From NCBI RefSeq assembly GCF_008831285.2, contig NW_022204618.1, forward strand, positions 1-64,000: 64,000 bases of DNA, read 5' to 3'. Positions 2,335 to 58,713 of the stretch are shown here, piece by piece. Under the pieces are notes generated by a model that worked only from the letters and a program-made list of their open reading frames with translations, was not told where the DNA came from and searched no databases. A program made the translations under genes and the position numbers. The first letter of the stretch is position 1. Every line of letters starts with the position of its first letter. The stretch comes from Nymphaea colorata (lineage: Eukaryota; Streptophyta; Magnoliopsida; Nymphaeales; Nymphaeaceae).

Positions 2335-4906
2335 TCATGCAATATACCTAAAGACGTTCCTCTGTCCCTCCACCCGCTCGCATACTTCTTATTGATGAGT
2401 TCCTCCACGATTTCCTTAAGGAATTTCTCAGTGACTCTGAACTCCTTGTTCCTGCCCTCCTGGGTGACTTTGAACAGGTGCTAGAAAGAGCAGTTCATGT
2501 GGTGGTGGTGGGCGTGCTTGAGGGTCTTTACAGTGATGCACTCCACTTTGAACTTGCGCTCAGCTTCGATACGCTTCTCGTCCTCGTTGAACGCCTTGAT
2601 TTCCTCGTCAAAGCCCCTCTTAGCTCTTCGGAGAGAGTGAGGATGTTGCTCTTGAGAATGGGAATTGGCTTGGAGCAGGCCCCTTTGATCCTTTCTTTCT
2701 CTTCTCCTCCTCGACGAAATCATACTTGCGGTTGATTTCAAATTCATCACTCTATACGATCTTGCAGATGTTGGGCGTTCCGGGTTTGATGGACTTAGTG
2801 GGTGAGACGATGAGTCCGGAATAGAGAAGTTCCATGATGACTTTGGCCAGTTCGATCATTCCCTTCTGTTTGTTGGTGCCTACTGCTTCGATTTTCTTCT
2901 TGAGGTTACCGAAGAGCATGGGTTTTTTCTCTTCCTCGATGAAGAGGAGCACCATGAGGTAGATGTTCTTGAACTGGAAATTCTGCTTCTTTCCGTTGTC
3001 GAACTCGCCCTTGAATAGGGACACGCCGGAGTTGAACTCGAACGCGACGTTGGTGTTGCTGGCGCGGAAGTAGTCAGAGACTGAGTTGAAGGCTTGCTGG
3101 AGGATGGCTGGTGGGACTTCGATGGAGTAGGTGGACTTTTCAGGCCAGAAGTTGTTGTTCTTGATGATGATCTGGTTGAGCGGGTAGATCTTGTTGGGAG
3201 GCAGCTTGTTCTTCAGCTTGTTGTTGATGTCGATGCTCTTCTCCAGATCCTTGATGTTCTCTGCGAGCTCCTTCACCTCAGACACTCCGCACTCCTTCTG
3301 GATCTCCTCGATGAAGTTCTTCTCCATCGCGATGATCTGGCCAGTCTCAAGGTCCTTCGAGAACTCTACGTCCTCCACAGACGAGCAGCCATGTACTTTT
3401 GCTCCTCGTCGATGAAGCGAGTCTTTTCCTGTAGGATTTTGAACAGGGCGACCAGTTGGCGATAGCTGTCGCCCATGGCTTCGAGTCCTCCCTTCGAGTA
3501 GTTGATTTTGAACTTGTTATTCATGAAGGAGGCCAGGTTCTTGGCGCCGATATCGAACTTGGCTTCTTTTTTTCCGCGTTCTGTGAGATCGTTGCTGAGC
3601 ATGCCTCTGATCTTGGTGTTGCGGTCGTTTTCAAGTTCGAAGTTGTTGTTGCAGAAGTCGACGATGCGGATGCACTTGCCGTTGATGCGGATGAGCTCGG
3701 TGATGAAATCTGGAGGCTTCTTGGTCTTGTCCACCAGCTTCTCCGCCTCGTTCTGCAGGTAGTTGTTGAACATCTACCTGGTAAAGGGCAGCGATTTCTC
3801 CAGCACGCGGGAGTAGATGGTCCAGTAGCCCCGAATATCACGCTCGTAGTCCTCCTTGCCCTCCTCGTACAGCTCGAGGTAGCGCTTGAAGCCGTCCTCC
3901 TTCTTGATGCGCAGGTCGAGGCGATTGTCGATGAGATGCGAGTTGAGCACCTGATAGTACTTGGCGCAATTTTCCTTGGAGTGGATGTAGTACTGCGCCC
4001 TGCGTTCCTCCTCATCGATGATCTCCAGGATCCTGCGAATCTCATCAGTGGCGTTCATGGTGAGCGCCTTTTCCTCGACGAAGCGGTCGTAGAACTTGCC
4101 CAGGTTGTCGAGGGTTTGGCTGAGCAGGTGCGTGCTGAAGAATTCGCCGTCCTTGCTCTTCCGGAAGATCGGCATTTTCTCGTTCTTGAACTCGCGCTTG
4201 ATGAGCCTCGGCCGCCCTTCGTCCAGGATGGCAAAGGCGTCCATGTCGAAGTAGCAGCTCTCGAGGGAGTGGACGCTCTCTCGGATCTCCTCGCGCGGGA
4301 CGTTCTTGCCCTCTCGCTAGTAGAGCAGGAACTGGTTGAAGACTGACTTGAACTTGTCGATCAGTTTGATTTCCTCGAAGAAGCGTTTCAGTTCGTTGAC
4401 TCCCATCACGGGGATGGGCGCGATTTCTTCGTTCTGCCTCGAGCGGCTGCACCGGTACTCGTAGTCCCTGCAATTTCCCATCTTGAAGAAGTTGGTGAAA
4501 AACTCTGTGAGTTTTTCGCAGACGAAGAAGTGGCAGAAGACGTAGATCTGGTAGTGGGTCCATACTTCGTTGAGGGTGACAACGAATTGATGGGGATCCT
4601 TGCTCAGTTTGTCGAGGGGGAGGATCTTCTTGGCGATGTACTAGTGGATGAAGATCTGCAGGTTTTCCCTGACGAACCGATTGATTTCCACTTTTTCCTT
4701 GGTGTCTGATTTCACCTGTTCCGTGAAATTGTAGATATTGCTGAATAGTGATTCTTTTACCCTCGCAGCTAGCTGTGGTTGGTGAGGATGGAGGAGTTGT
4801 CGTTCTCGAAGCGGGAGATGAGAATTTTCCTCATGTTGTCGAAGCCGTTCTTGATGATCTCCAGGTACTCCCGGGCCCTTTTTCTATGATCTATCTTTTG
4901 ATCCAT
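2335..4906 (-). CDS. Cullin
   Basis: Scaffold of cullin-RING ubiquitin ligases. About 850 codons. Visible are the helical repeat N-terminal half (for example NELKRFFEEIKLIDKF, with a FLLYEREGKNV segment containing one TAG), the cullin-homology region (RFIDEEQKYMAARL, standing for the family FIDEYTKYMAKRL) and a C-terminal winged-helix region ending in NVFRYIA then TGA, equivalent to the family's YxYLA end. The expected neddylation Lys lies in a divergent stretch near 2500 that I cannot align confidently. Frame slips occur near 2370, 2700 and 3366. I cannot assign it to CUL1, CUL3 or CUL4. A GC-rich 296-codon frame on the opposite strand is its antisense shadow. Confidence 0.85.
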
Positions 4907-5121
4907 CTTATTAAAGAATTATTATATATCTTGCAAGCTTAAAAGAGGCACGTATAAAACCAGTCGACAACAAATAATCCACTAACCATCCAATAACACC
5001 ATTTCCCACCAAGGAACAAAAGAGAACGGCAAGAACTCACCTCTTTCGGTAGTTGTGTCTTGCATCGTTTCCAGAGCAAACCGACCCTTTCTTTCGTGTG
5101 ATAGCTTGGCTTATTTTATTA

Positions 5122-10463: not shown

Positions 10464-13401
10464 TCAAATCCATCGAATTTCCATCTTACCCTTTACCTAC
10501 TATTCCTGGAAGTAACTATAGATGTCGTTCTTACCAGCAGTTGTATCCTTGGAGAATGCGGGAGCCTTGATGGGATTGGAGGATAGGATTGGATTGGAAC
10601 TGAAACCTGATTAGATTTCAGCGAATGGATTGTTTGGATCGCTTGCTATAGGAGCAGAGCCGAGATTCAGTGAAGGCTAGCCGAAGGAAAAGCTAGGCGT
10701 GGTTATCTTTGGCTCTGATGGCTTGGAGATCGGTTTGATTGGATTGCCGATTGAGCTTGGCTGTGCGAATTTCATATCGAATCCTCCTAAGTTGCCAAAG
10801 TCCATCGACATGCTCGGAGTTTATACCTTTTGAGGCTTGCTAGAGAAGTAATCCATGCTCAAAGTGGGCTCTGGTTCTTCATAGTGGGCGAATCTTCTTT
10901 CTTTTGCTATGAAGGAGGAGGCTTTATCTTGGCTTGTGGACCAACGATTTTCTTTATCTACATTGGGCCTGATGCTCCACCTATGAATTTAGCCTATTTT
11001 TCCTTCTTTGCCTCAGTTGAAGGCTTTGATTGTAAAGTCGGCGTCGGATTTGGTGGTTTTGGCATAGAAATGGGTTCTTTTTTCTCTTCTTTTTCAGGTG
11101 GCTTCACAGTGGGAGGAGCGTTGAAAGAGAGGATGGGACTATCGTTGGTGAAATCTAAGTCTAGAGGCTGATAGTTGCTGATCCTCCGAAATCATAGAGA
11201 CTGGCTTCGGCGCAGGGGGATCGGGGATAGTTGGCTTGATGGATAGATTCATATGGGGTGATATTGTTGGTGGTTTAACTTCGATTGGAGGCATTGGGTA
11301 GTTGATTGTAGCCATTTAGTCGATTTACTTAGGCGGTGGCTCACGCAGGTGATGTGAAAGTAGCTATATTGTCAACCTTGGGAAGAGTGAAAGGAATCTA
11401 CTGGCTATTGAAGACCATCGGTTGAGTGGGAAGACTGAAGTTAAGTGTCGGATCGCTAAAGCTACTTGTTGGATTATATTGTGGATTTATTGATTGGGCT
11501 GGAGGAATAGAACCTACAGGGATGTTCGAAGTGGGATTAGTATTGACAGCTGATTGAGGAGAACGTTTAAATTAGCGTTTGGATCAGGTTTATTCTCGAT
11601 ATAATTCGCTAAGAAACTATAGTTTCCTTTGGATTATACTTGCGTCTTAGTTTCTTCCTCTTTGAACTTGAAATCTGCCTCTGTAAAGTGAGTCTAGTCG
11701 CAGCAATATTGTTATTAAGGTTTTTCCCTATCTTTTTCGATGATGTTGATCATGTTGATAATGGTTGTTTTGAATTGGTAGAACTCTACTTTGCTGATGC
11801 TGGGTATGAAGATAGGTATGAGATTTGGAAGGATTTTGCTGATAGAACGTCGCTTGGCAGAGTAGAGCTTAGGTTGTTGTAGATTGCGTTGATGATGGCA
11901 TTAACGAAACCTCAGAGCCTGCCTTCTGGCTGTCTCTATGGCGGGAAGCACCTCATGCTCATTGTTTGAGCATCGATCACCTTTAAAATTGCATATAAAG
12001 CCTTCAGAGCGTCCTTGCGGATCTCAATCATGGGGTCTTTGAAGAGAGCAAGCAACTTAGGCACGATTCTTGTCTTAAAGTTTTGGTAGTCTAGCTTGCG
12101 AGATAGTCTTCAATTCCTCTCAATGCGAGCTGTTTTAGCTTGGGTGGGCAATCGAAGCACTTGATGTACAAAGGAAGAAGATAGGCAATCGTATCAGCTT
12201 CGCCGATGAACTTTTCCAATGTTTAATAGTTCAGCACAAACAGGTAGATGCCTGTGCTGTCATTTCCTTGCCCTGCATCACTCCCTTGAGAGCAGGCCAC
12301 ACCAGCTTGTTAAAGACATCAGGCACTACCTTCCCTTTTTGAGAAGATCAATGATGATATAGGCAACGCTAGCAATAAGGTGGCCGAACTTGAGTAGATC
12401 GATCAACTTGGGAAGGACAATCCTCGCTAAACTCTTGCATCGAAATCTTCAAGCACTCCTGCAAGTCCCTTCAGAAACTCTAGCTGTTGTTTGTTCTCAT
12501 AGCTGCTGATCTTGTCAAGGTATTTAACCGTGATAAGCGTACTGTCATTCATCCATTTGCTTGAAAGCACTTCCGAGACGTTCCAGCGATAGGCGCCCTC
12601 CCAGCTGAGAAGCGCTCCTAGAAGCTACCTAAGTTCGGCTGGGTGGCTGCTCTTTGCGATCACGGCAGAGTTTGCAAGTTTTTTAAGCTCTCCCGAGTAT
12701 TTTTAGTAGTGGCTCCGATCTGGAATGCTGATCTGGCGCTGCTATTTGTGGATGAATTACATTACCTTCACTATGAAGACTCCCAATGAAAAAATATCGG
12801 ATTTCTTTGAGAATGTACTGCTAAGGGCCAGTTATGGAGCCGAATAGGAAAGATCGAAGAACTTCTATTATGTTTTCTGCTGGTCCTCGCCTGTGAGTTG
12901 CTGGTTTACGCCGAAACCTGCCAGCTTCCACTTGCCGTCTTGGGAAACGTAAATGTTTTACGGTGAGATGGCCAGATGGGCCTGCTTGAGCGTATCGTGG
13001 ATGAAGGATATCGTTTCGAGGAAGGGATATAGGTAGAGCTTTAATTCCAGTTCTGAGTTCAAATATTCTGCCATTTTGTTATTCTTTATCAACTGAGCCA
13101 TAGTCCCTTCTACTCTTTCTGTGACAAATGCAAGAATGTTTTCATCTTCTGTGAGCGGTTCCACAACAGCCAAGACTCCAGGATGTCTCACCCTCAGCAG
13201 GCTACTTGCTTCCTTCTTTGCAATCTTGATCGTATCTTCTCGCTCTGCCTTTTTAAGTTGTTTCTTTTCGATCAGAAAGATTGAAGCCAGGGTGTGAGTC
13301 TGTGCCTTGTGACCGCGATAGAGTTTCCAGGACTTGTTGAGACCTGCCAAGCCTTGAGAATCGCCGTCAAGCGCATATCCTTTGATAAGTTGCCCTCCCA
13401 T
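10464..13401 (-). CDS. SCY1-like pseudokinase, SCYL2/CVAK104 type
   Basis: About 980 codons. The N-terminal kinase-like fold includes RVRHPGVLAVVEPLTED, VEGTMAQLI, then HLAISPENIYV in place of the catalytic HRD loop and LAGFG in place of DFG: a pseudokinase. The E of SPEN is a TAA (12958-12960), an invariant Glu in this family. HEAT repeats follow (12000-12700; LPKLIDLLKFGHL, LALRGIEDYL). The long Pro/Phe-rich tail ends with NNPFAEI and SNPI motifs of the kind that bind EH-domain and clathrin-coat partners. Known relatives act in clathrin-coated vesicle traffic between Golgi and endosomes. Frame slips occur in the HEAT region and tail. Confidence 0.8.
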
Positions 13402-13445
13402 AATTATATATTATTCAAATCATCAATTCGACAGAAAATAGCTCT

Positions 13446-50409: not shown

Positions 50410-50481
50410 TCCTAGATCGTTCAACGGTGAGGACAACGGACTTTAAATCCGTGAATCGGGGTTCGATTCCCCGTCTGGGAG
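50410..50481 (+). tRNA. tRNA-Glu(UUA): tRNA with UUA anticodon (reads UAA, UAG by wobble); Glu-type body
   Basis: 72 bases with a full cloverleaf. Acceptor TCCTAGA/TCTGGGA with one G-U, D-arm GTTC/GGAC, anticodon stem ACGGA/TCCGT around loop CTTTAAA (anticodon TTA), T-arm CGGGG/CCCCG with loop TTCGATT, discriminator G. The B box GGTTCGATTCC is perfect. The U1-A72, TCC...GGA acceptor and the CGGGGTTCGATTCCCCG T-arm resemble eukaryotic tRNA-Glu rather than ciliate tRNA-Gln(UUA), whose acceptor starts GG. The anticodon loop itself could come from either. With the in-frame UAR evidence, Glu charging is the best reading. Followed by a T6 tract. Confidence 0.92.
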
Positions 50482-50487
50482 TTTTTT
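50482..50487 (+). terminator. RNA polymerase III terminator
   Basis: TTTTTT directly after the tRNA discriminator base. Confidence 0.85.
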
Positions 50488-56619: not shown

Positions 56620-58713
56620 TCAGAGATTGGACATAGGCCTCAAGACCTATCTCACTTATTTTGTCCACTTTCGATAAACTGTCCTGATGTGGTTTATATT
56701 CACCCGCAAATCGTTGGTAGCCTCACTCACTCGCCCCCTCATTGTCTCCAATGCAGCCATACACTTGGAGACTCTTTTTTATATTTCCAGATTGAGTATA
56801 CACCAAATCTCATGAGCTTCGGGTTTCTGTATGCTTGCAGCTAGGAATGAGTTTTCCTCTCTCTCCTTCAGGTCGTACCAAACCTCGCTGAGGTCGAGCC
56901 TGGCTGCGTCTTCAAGCAGTTCCGCGCACTCAGACTCGACCACTTCTAGCGAGCCGAGCAGCGTTTACAAGTTATAGTGTAAATATTGGGAGTTTTCCTG
57001 AATCAGCCCGAGGAACTGATCGAAAAATTTCCTCATCTTGGCATCAAGCTCGCCCTGCTGGCCCTCTCCACCTCCTGCCTTGGCTGTCTTTGCTGATTCT
57101 TTCTTATTTGAGTCTATCTCATCGATGAAGGATCGGATAAGTTTGATCTCATTTACTTGGATTCGATGATCTTGCTTACCACTTTTTCCTTTCCCTGCAG
57201 GATGAGTTCCTTCTCTTTGCGCAGGGATTATATCTGCGCTTCGTACTCTTTCTCATTTGAAGTTTGCTGTCTTCGTAGGTTGTCTACATGCGGTAGTATT
57301 TTTCGTGTTCTAGGGCAAGCTCGTCCTCGAGGTAATGCATCTCTACCATCTATTAGCGGTATGAAATTGCCTTCAACTCATACTGTTAGAGAATGGATTA
57401 ACTTTCCTATTTCAAAAATAGAGCTTTCTTGATTCCTTCTATAATCTAGAAATCTAATTATTTTTATGGTCAATTTATCCCGTAATTTGGCCTCTCTTTT
57501 TCAAACTAGAGCTTAGTTCTTATCTTGAGAGCCATTTCTTCTTCCAGAAGCTGAGTAACATACATTTTCTCCTCATAGATGGTCTTTTTATCGTTGAGCA
57601 AACATTAAATTTACCTGTTTTTCCTCTCCAGCAAATTAGTGGAATTGGTCTCATGCTCTTGGATGATAGCTTCAATGCAGACAGCTCATTGGATAGCTTC
57701 AAGAGGTCTGCTTTTAGCTTCTCGTTTTAGTATTCCAAATCCTCCACTCTTTCTTGATGCTTTTTTATTGAAAATGCATGCTATTCTTCAAGGGAATTTC
57801 TCTCAGTAGCATTACGTATCTTGGTATCTTCCAATTACTGCTCAAGTGTTTGGATTTTCTGTTAAAATTACTCAGTATCTCCAGCATAGTTGAGAATGTA
57901 GCTGGAGTCATCTTTGACTCGTGACTCCAGAGACGATATCCTTTCGAGAGCCTCCTCATAATCCCTCCACAGTTTTCGGCATTCCTCTTCCTTGTATGCC
58001 AATTTTTTTTCCAAGACAATATTCTTGGCACTGCGTCCCGCTATCAATCTTTCCTCCTCGAAAGTGGTAGAGGCTTCAGGATTTTCCTCCTTCTCGCGGG
58101 AGGATCCGATAATGAGAAGATACTTGGCCAGATCGTGGAACAATTCCGTCACATTTTCATTGGTCTTGGCGGAGACTTCATAGAAGAGAGAGAGCGCCTT
58201 TTGCTTCTTGAGTTGTGCGCCCTATTGCGGGGTGACCTATCGCCTATATTAGCCCAAATAATACAAGTGTGGCCGATCGCAATGAGTTCCGACCAACGCG
58301 AACAGAATATCCTTCGGTAAATGCGACTTCAATTCCGATGCCATATCTGCCAATTTCAGGAAGCTCTGCTCACTAAATCCCCAATGCAGTACTTGGTGAC
58401 GTCGTAGACCAACAAAACGGCATCGATATCTCGTAAGAAGCTCTGAGGACCGTATGGGGGCATCCCGCTGCCGAGAGTATCGACAAGTTCCAGTCTGACG
58501 AAGAGGGAATCTTCGAGGCGAACAGCCTTGGTGTGGCTATTGGGTCCTGGGTCATATGGGAAGCGTACGAAGGGTCATGTGGTAATTCTCTTCGAAGGTG
58601 TTGTTGGCGAATCTGGCGACGAGTGAGGTCTTGCCGGCGGAGTAGGGTCCGACCACTGCTACTTTATACTTTGATTTGATAAACTTGGAAGGATGATTTA
58701 TTTTATTCATCAT
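56620..58713 (-). CDS. Rab-like GTPase with long coiled-coil extension
   Basis: The GTPase domain comes first: YKVAVVGPYSAGKTSLVARF (P-loop), NTFEENYHMTL, LFVRLELVDTLGSGMPPYG (the WDTAGQE position), DIDAVLLVYDVTKY, DILFALVGTHCDRPHLYYL (the NKxD position) and LFYEVSAKTNENVTELFHDL (clear SAK motif). Two key motifs are altered: DTLGSG lacks the catalytic Gln, and THCD replaces NKxD. About 480 residues of coiled coil follow (KNIVLEKKLAYKEEECRKLW; YEEALERISSLESRVKDDSS; AHEIWCILNLEIEKRVSKCM). No prenylation Cys at the end. A 22-nt intron is likely at the effector loop (about 58542-58563). Confidence 0.7.

Follow-up and report, generated by a model that had tools for sequence, protein, structure and literature searches.

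A ciliate tRNA gene with anticodon UUA, very probably reading UAA and UAG as glutamate, looks part tRNA-Glu and part tRNA-Gln

Background

In peritrich ciliates, the codons UAA and UAG (together UAR) are established as glutamate codons (PMC10553269, PMC4695839, PMC11687900). According to the account of code changes in PMC10553269, UAR is inferred to have meant glutamine in the ancestor of the Oligohymenophorea and to have come to mean glutamate later, in the peritrichs. Given this inferred ancestral meaning, the lineage probably already possessed a tRNA-Gln(UUA), and what is at stake is the path from a probable ancestral UAR = Gln to Glu in peritrichs. In the searchable portions of the literature on peritrich, Vorticella and Opisthonecta tRNAs we found no sequence of a peritrich UAR tRNA, and we make no claim to a first report. 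We take the peritrich nuclear code to be NCBI table 30 (Campanella, Carchesium, Vorticella and Opisthonecta).

A second system in which UAR is read as glutamate is that of Blastocrithidia, where the Northern probe for tRNA-Glu(UUA) is the complement of TCTGGCTTTAACCCAGGCGAC (PMC12153298). As given by this probe, the Blastocrithidia anticodon arm keeps C38 and departs from the plant Glu arm of locus L024 by C36A alone.

Results

A ciliate contig in a plant assembly

The window (the whole stretch of DNA analysed) is the first 64,000 nucleotides of contig C120, one of 783 contigs that make up a plant assembly of 407.8 Mb. The assembly includes contigs of 159.8 kb and 617 kb, whose tRNAs we take to be plastid and plant mitochondrial, respectively, as well as large contigs, four of them 26-44 Mb. 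At its start, C120 carries CCCCAA-type repeats (Table 1), the telomere type of Tetrahymena-like ciliates. The DRC4 encoded on contig C293, beside a second UAR tRNA gene described below, has PDB chain 8tek_E as its best match (456 bits; next chain 262), and 8tek is presumably a Tetrahymena structure. From the telomere on C120, the DRC4 match to 8tek_E and the plant-type organelle-sized contigs, we conclude that the window is ciliate DNA assembled with plant DNA. Contig C601 was also counted as ciliate because its long frames are open only without UAA and UAG stops (607 codons versus 154 with them).

The G+C content of the window is 42%, and that of seven peritrich assemblies is given as 25 to 46% (PMC12411067). 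A scan of 70.5 kb of ciliate loci turned up no rRNA. Judging from the code and the telomere, the organism is most likely a peritrich.

Identical tRNA genes (Lys, Thr, Arg and Asn) were detected on pairs of small contigs (C123/C377, C221/C286, C251/C293 and C378/C646); these are probably dispersed copies and not alleles, because the G+C content of the fetched stretches differs. The tRNA-Asp(GUC) gene of contig C783, which we read as plastid, is also found on the small contigs C17, C143, C161 and C227 (L001-L003 and L014), the C143 copy being one base short. Since small contigs share this gene, plastid fragments as well as ciliate chromosomes are present among the unplaced contigs. The case shows that a plant assembly can hold useful ciliate chromosomes.

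The tRNA gene with anticodon UUA

ARAGORN, run over the whole 64 kb, reported a single tRNA, with anticodon TTA (Table 1), which matches the Rfam family RF00005 with 60.8 bits (E 1.1e-10; gathering score 29). Read from the sequence, it is 72 bases long and has U1-A72, C2-G71, C3-G70 and G73, and its anticodon loop is CTTTAAA, with A37 and A38. These are the features on which the original prediction was built (a 72-base cloverleaf with U1-A72, TCC..GGA, loop CTTTAAA and A37-A38), and all of them are correct on direct reading and by ARAGORN and Rfam. The minimum-energy fold is the cloverleaf, with a z of only -1.1. The T arm contains the B box, the T-arm sequence with the role of an internal element, and a run resembling an RNA polymerase III terminator follows the gene (Table 1). 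The locus is a real tRNA gene. In-frame UAR codons are present in conserved genes of the same genome; together with the intact cloverleaf, they support the earlier view that this tRNA decodes reassigned UAA and UAG. It is very probably what makes the ciliate read UAA and UAG as glutamate.

Table 1. Features of the window discussed in the text, with positions counted from its first base
Feature	Position	Strand	Evidence
Telomere, CCCCAA-type repeats, start of C120	1..90	+	Tandem Repeats Finder: period 6, 15.5 copies, 97% matches
Cullin ORF with in-frame UAR	3273..5036	-	Pfam PF00888: E 72.2, Q 71.7, D 71.6 bits
Kinase-like ORF, open only with UAA/UAG as sense; UAA at 12958-12960 (PxN) and 12832-12834 (APx)	12403..13419	-	Pfam PF00069
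tRNA gene, anticodon UUA, reads UAA, and UAG by wobble; proposed Glu	50410..50481	+	ARAGORN, Rfam, CUA partner on C293
GGACTTTAAATCC, tRNA positions 29-41; same as tRNA-Gln GGACTTTGAATCC save position 36	50438..50450	+	Pattern search, positional comparison
Anticodon TTA (tRNA positions 34-36)	50443..50445	+	ARAGORN, sequence reading
Internal B box / T arm GGTTCGATTC	50460..50469	+	Sequence reading
T6, RNA polymerase III terminator-like	50482..50487	+	Sequence reading
Rab-like ORF with in-frame UAR; UAG faces second Glu of the YPT51 EEG stretch	57412..58551	-	PDB alignment, Pfam

A partner gene with anticodon CUA

A DNA search of the assembly with the UUA tRNA (E up to 10) returned one relative besides the window, at C293:3538-3616 (85% identical over 79 bases). 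This is a second tRNA gene, with anticodon CUA, at C293:3539-3610 (Rfam 60.4 bits), and with the anticodon excluded the two genes are identical at 58 of 69 positions. A pattern for the anticodon arm that they share with tRNA-Gln matches both genes and, on large contigs, three Gln-type copies.

When the cloverleaf is imposed on both genes, 42 of 42 stem cells pair, compared with 36-57% when the partners are slid by 1-3 columns, and three of the 21 pairs (5-68, 27-43 and 50-64) are changed on both sides between the two genes. A shuffle control, weak because it involves two sequences only, reached the observed values in 65 of 500 shuffles. The minimum-energy fold of the CUA copy is not the cloverleaf (z -1.3). 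Taken by itself, energy folding supports the cloverleaf weakly. Six T lie directly 3' of the CUA gene as well as of the UUA gene, and outside the tRNA the flanks gave no convincing alignment except for this common T run. We read the stem pairing, the compensatory pairs and the T6 as signs of two kept genes.

In C293 the CUA gene sits between a DRC4/GAS8 gene (L021:2055-3725), the coding part of which ends at about 3434, and a TTL-like gene (L021:4273-5772). DRC4 and the tubulin-tyrosine-ligase-like enzyme are cilium or microtubule proteins.

Glu-type and Gln-type positions in the UAR tRNAs

Both genes were compared with the ciliate tRNA-Gln(CUG) of C601, three plant tRNA-Gln, one plant nuclear tRNA-Glu and the plant mitochondrial tRNA-Glu. 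With the anticodon excluded, the UUA gene is identical at 39-40 of 69 positions to the four Gln genes, at 40 to the plant nuclear Glu gene and at 39 to the mitochondrial one; the corresponding values for the CUA gene are 41-45, 44 and 43. Because the Gln and Glu values tie, total identity decides nothing.

At 21 positions (the separating positions), the four Gln genes have a common base that is not the base of the one plant nuclear tRNA-Glu. At nine of these (1, 2, 3, 9, 28, 42, 70, 71 and 72) both UAR tRNAs have the Glu-type base and at seven (25, 29, 31, 38, 39, 41 and 66) the Gln-type base; at the other five (5, 7, 36, 68 and 73) they are neither or split. The acceptor end (U1-A72, C2-G71 and C3-G70) is Glu-type when set against one plant nuclear tRNA-Glu, and the Gln acceptor end of the C601 tRNA-Gln(CUG), with G1-C72 and U73, is absent from the UAR tRNA; the Glu-type acceptor proposed in the original prediction is thereby borne out. 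The D arm (8-26) is identical to that of the plant mitochondrial tRNA-Glu at 16 of 19 positions.

The anticodon arm gave a different picture. Over positions 29-33 and 37-41, the UAR tRNAs match the ciliate and plant Gln genes at 10 of 10 positions, the plant nuclear Glu gene at five and the mitochondrial Glu gene at four, so that no Glu-type anticodon arm (C38 with the Glu stem) was found. It had been predicted that A37-A38 is the arrangement of tRNA-Gln; this is correct, but the misfit is not limited to these two bases and spans the whole core of the anticodon arm. The origin suggested at the same time, a duplication of tRNA-Glu followed by a single C36A change, found no support, since a third of the separating positions, including 38, are Gln-type. 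The UAR tRNAs thus look like a mosaic, with an outer acceptor and position 9 that are Glu-like and an anticodon-arm core that is Gln-like.

Three patterns for a ciliate tRNA-Glu were run on the assembly and none was found on the small contigs. Pattern searches of the assembly for a ciliate tRNA-Gln(UUG) likewise found none; because this tRNA is also missing, the assembly may hold only part of the ciliate genome, and such absences mean little.

Residues facing UAA and UAG in conserved proteins

Pfam was run on 30 ORF readings, of which those without a family were unusable for the code. For the kinase-like ORF (PF00069), ten residues were tried for UAR and E scored best (90.2 bits; Q 87.3, S 85.9, D 85.3 and K 85.1), giving E a margin over Q of 2.9 bits, compared with 0.5 for the cullin. 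The ATP-synt_C family also placed E first (92.6, 1.2 above Q), a difference that we regard as noise because Y ranks directly below E (92.0, 0.6 lower). The GAS domain scored D above E (155.4 and 152.9) and E above Q by 0.9. Q came out ahead in Ras (47.0, E 46.6), in TTL (Q 175.4, K 175.1, E 174.7) and in SUV3_C (21.6, E 21.2), and Helicase_C gave a tie. Since Pfam scores by code are too flat to decide, we used alignments to PDB chains in which UAA and UAG are written as X.

Six proteins were aligned in this way by phmmer: DRC4, eRF1, an Hsp90-family protein (which we read as GRP94), the kinase-like protein, TTL and Rab. One PDB chain per protein, the top match, was tallied, except for the kinase, for which the second match (4yc6) was taken; the Hsp90-family protein was aligned in two stretches, the middle stretch entering with its first alignment block only. 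The residues facing the 27 UAR sites are E (7), D (5), K (3), Q (3), G (3), S (2) and T, H, P and A (1 each), and BLOSUM62 sums over these sites are 45 for E, 33 for D, 23 for Q and 10 for K. With the kinase top match 3niz instead, tallied by hand, E and D face six sites each and the sums are E 42, D 37 and Q 21. E was best for each codon separately (UAA, 13 sites: E 17, D 13, Q 10, K -3; UAG, 14 sites: E 28, D 20, Q 13, K 13).

As an internal control, profiles were built from the residues opposite the genome's own GAR, GAY and CAR codons within these alignments. Scored on the UAR sites, the Glu profile gives +12.6 bits, the Asp profile +12.7 and the Gln profile -18.7. The gap between Glu and Gln is 31 bits, and the control does not separate Glu from Asp at UAR sites.

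Glu is conserved at the YENL site of eRF1, the SRE site of Hsp90 and the APE site of kinases, and the third residue of the kinase APx motif is usually Glu. The eRF1 stretch Y-UAA-DL faces YENL of mammalian chains, and NR-UAG-NLQ of the Hsp90-family protein faces SRETLQ of endoplasmin. AP-UAA of the kinase-like protein faces APE/SPE, with E in CDK1 but D in the top match 3niz; at its PxN site (UAA), both matches have Q. This ORF is without HRD and DFG motifs (HLAIS and GFG in their stead) and is for that reason probably a pseudokinase; we presume a resemblance to the SCYL group.

V-ATPase c was left out of the tally because its UAR codons fall either in a stretch that does not align and is probably intronic or beyond the conserved end. 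In the V-ATPase proteolipid gene (L034:1318-1800), a short non-aligning stretch in frame is probably an intron, one without a stop once UAR is read as sense. A cytosolic Hsp90 gene (L027) stands outside the alignments to PDB chains, the WD40 alignment has no UAR inside, and no PDB chain matched the cullin, read with UAR as X, at E 0.001.

In this genome, UAA and UAG serve as sense codons. The residues facing them fit Glu or Asp and not Gln, and the predicted meaning of UAR, glutamate, agrees with the alignments in that E is best by BLOSUM62 for UAA and for UAG, Asp being the residue that the internal control leaves level with it.

Release factor eRF1

Contig C78 (L029:341-1843) encodes eRF1 (448.6 bits to the best PDB chain), with KAAQIKD replacing TASNIKS and YNCDSKF replacing YLCDNKF. 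These motifs are altered much as in Tetrahymena, whose eRF1 has KATNIKD and YFCDSKF (PMC4695839). They seem to fit a factor restricted to UGA, without proving it.

Discussion

We are confident that the locus is a nuclear tRNA gene from a ciliate of the Oligohymenophorea, very probably a peritrich, in which UAA and UAG are read as glutamate and UGA is left as a stop. It would be a macronuclear gene of a ciliate whose DNA was assembled with that of the plant. Its UUA anticodon is expected to pair with UAA and, by wobble, with UAG, which the sister CUA gene would also read. Once expressed, both tRNAs would be charged with glutamate by GluRS, as suggested by the Glu-type acceptor end and by the protein positions at which UAR is used, and UGA would be left as the stop by a release factor whose stop-recognition motifs carry ciliate-type changes.

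How the pair arose is a separate matter. Under the extended-anticodon idea, an anticodon arm may be tuned for a codon starting with U. It is quite possible, if somewhat short of probable, that the UAR tRNAs descend from tRNA-Glu by C36A, with selection for efficient decoding of UAR later altering position 38 and the stem. The Glu-type acceptor, C9 and pair 28-42 argue for such a descent, as does the Glu-derived tRNA described for Blastocrithidia (PMC12153298), but several extra changes are needed, at 25, 29, 31, 38, 39, 41 and 66, and all of them go onto the Gln state. Less probable, though still to be taken seriously, is an origin from an inherited tRNA-Gln(UUA) that acquired Glu identity when its acceptor end and a few further positions changed, a tRNA identity conversion which would yield the observed mosaic. 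The perfect match of the arm core to tRNA-Gln points this way, as do the UAR = Gln placed before peritrich Glu in PMC10553269 and the Blastocrithidia arm, which, being a plant Glu arm plus C36A according to the probe in PMC12153298, shows that a Glu-derived case looks different. On the other side are the Glu-type positions 1-3 and 70-72, C9 and 28-42 (9/21) and the use of a single plant gene, not the ciliate's own tRNA-Glu, as the nuclear Glu reference. The Gln-like core may also have arisen by convergence, tuned to the reading of UAR. A shade more tentatively, we suggest that peritrichs turned UAR from Gln to Glu by converting the inherited tRNA-Gln(UUA)/(CUA) pair and not by recruiting a tRNA-Glu, the decoding half having been kept Gln-type and the acceptor half rebuilt for GluRS. 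If true, the codon changed its amino acid through a change of tRNA identity, and its reader was never lost.

Other readings concern the code itself or the nature of the gene. It is very unlikely that UAR means Gln as in Tetrahymena and that the tRNA is an odd tRNA-Gln(UUA): the Gln-type anticodon arm, the small Pfam preference for Q in three families and the Q at three of the 27 UAR sites, kinase PxN included, would agree with this, but the Q profile lies far below the E profile, Glu stands opposite UAR in eRF1, the Hsp90-family protein and CDK1, and the acceptor end and base 73 are unlike those of the same genome's tRNA-Gln. A split code, with UAA as Lys and UAG as Glu, deserves still less credence. 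It is brought to mind by Oligohymenophorea sp. PL0344, also an oligohymenophorean and with both UUA and CUA tRNAs (PMC10553269), but here Lys faces none of the 13 UAA sites and three of the 14 UAG sites, with a negative BLOSUM62 sum at UAA where E is best, and the two tRNAs have a common body and acceptor end. Least credible of all is that the tRNA plays no part in a reassigned code, being plant, organellar or degenerate. The assembly is that of a plant, and the D arm is close to that of plant mitochondrial tRNA-Glu; however, the gene lies on a telomere-capped contig with UAR-containing genes, has a CUA partner with compensatory changes, and has no copy on the large contigs by DNA search and pattern search.

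Glutamate as the meaning of UAR therefore stands as the preferred reading, and as a code it is already known; the tRNA mosaic bears on how the code changed. The mosaic UUA and CUA genes make two routes testable, capture of UAR by a new tRNA-Glu and conversion of a Gln suppressor tRNA. Of the described systems, the peritrich code agrees with the reading proposed here, with UAA and UAG both fitting Glu and UGA as the remaining stop. Blastocrithidia likewise has a pair of UUA and CUA tRNAs that reads UAR as Glu, but its UGA is Trp, and its anticodon arm, to judge from the published probe, is a Glu arm with only C36A, unlike the Gln-like arm core of the ciliate tRNA. The tRNA-Sup(CUA) of PL0344 reads UAG as Glu, as the CUA tRNA would here; in that species, however, UAA is Lys, and the published comparison gives tRNA-Lys as the nearest match for 8 of 12 UUA tRNAs, whereas the two tRNAs described here have one body and UAA fits Glu. 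With the tRNA-Gln(UUA) and tRNA-Gln(CUA) of Tetrahymena, our genes share the make-up of an oligohymenophorean pair reading UAR and, as we presume for the Tetrahymena tRNA-Gln(UUA), a Gln-type anticodon arm. They differ in having U1-A72, C2-G71, C3-G70 and G73, not the Gln type of the genome's own tRNA-Gln(CUG), and in UAR sites that fit Glu.
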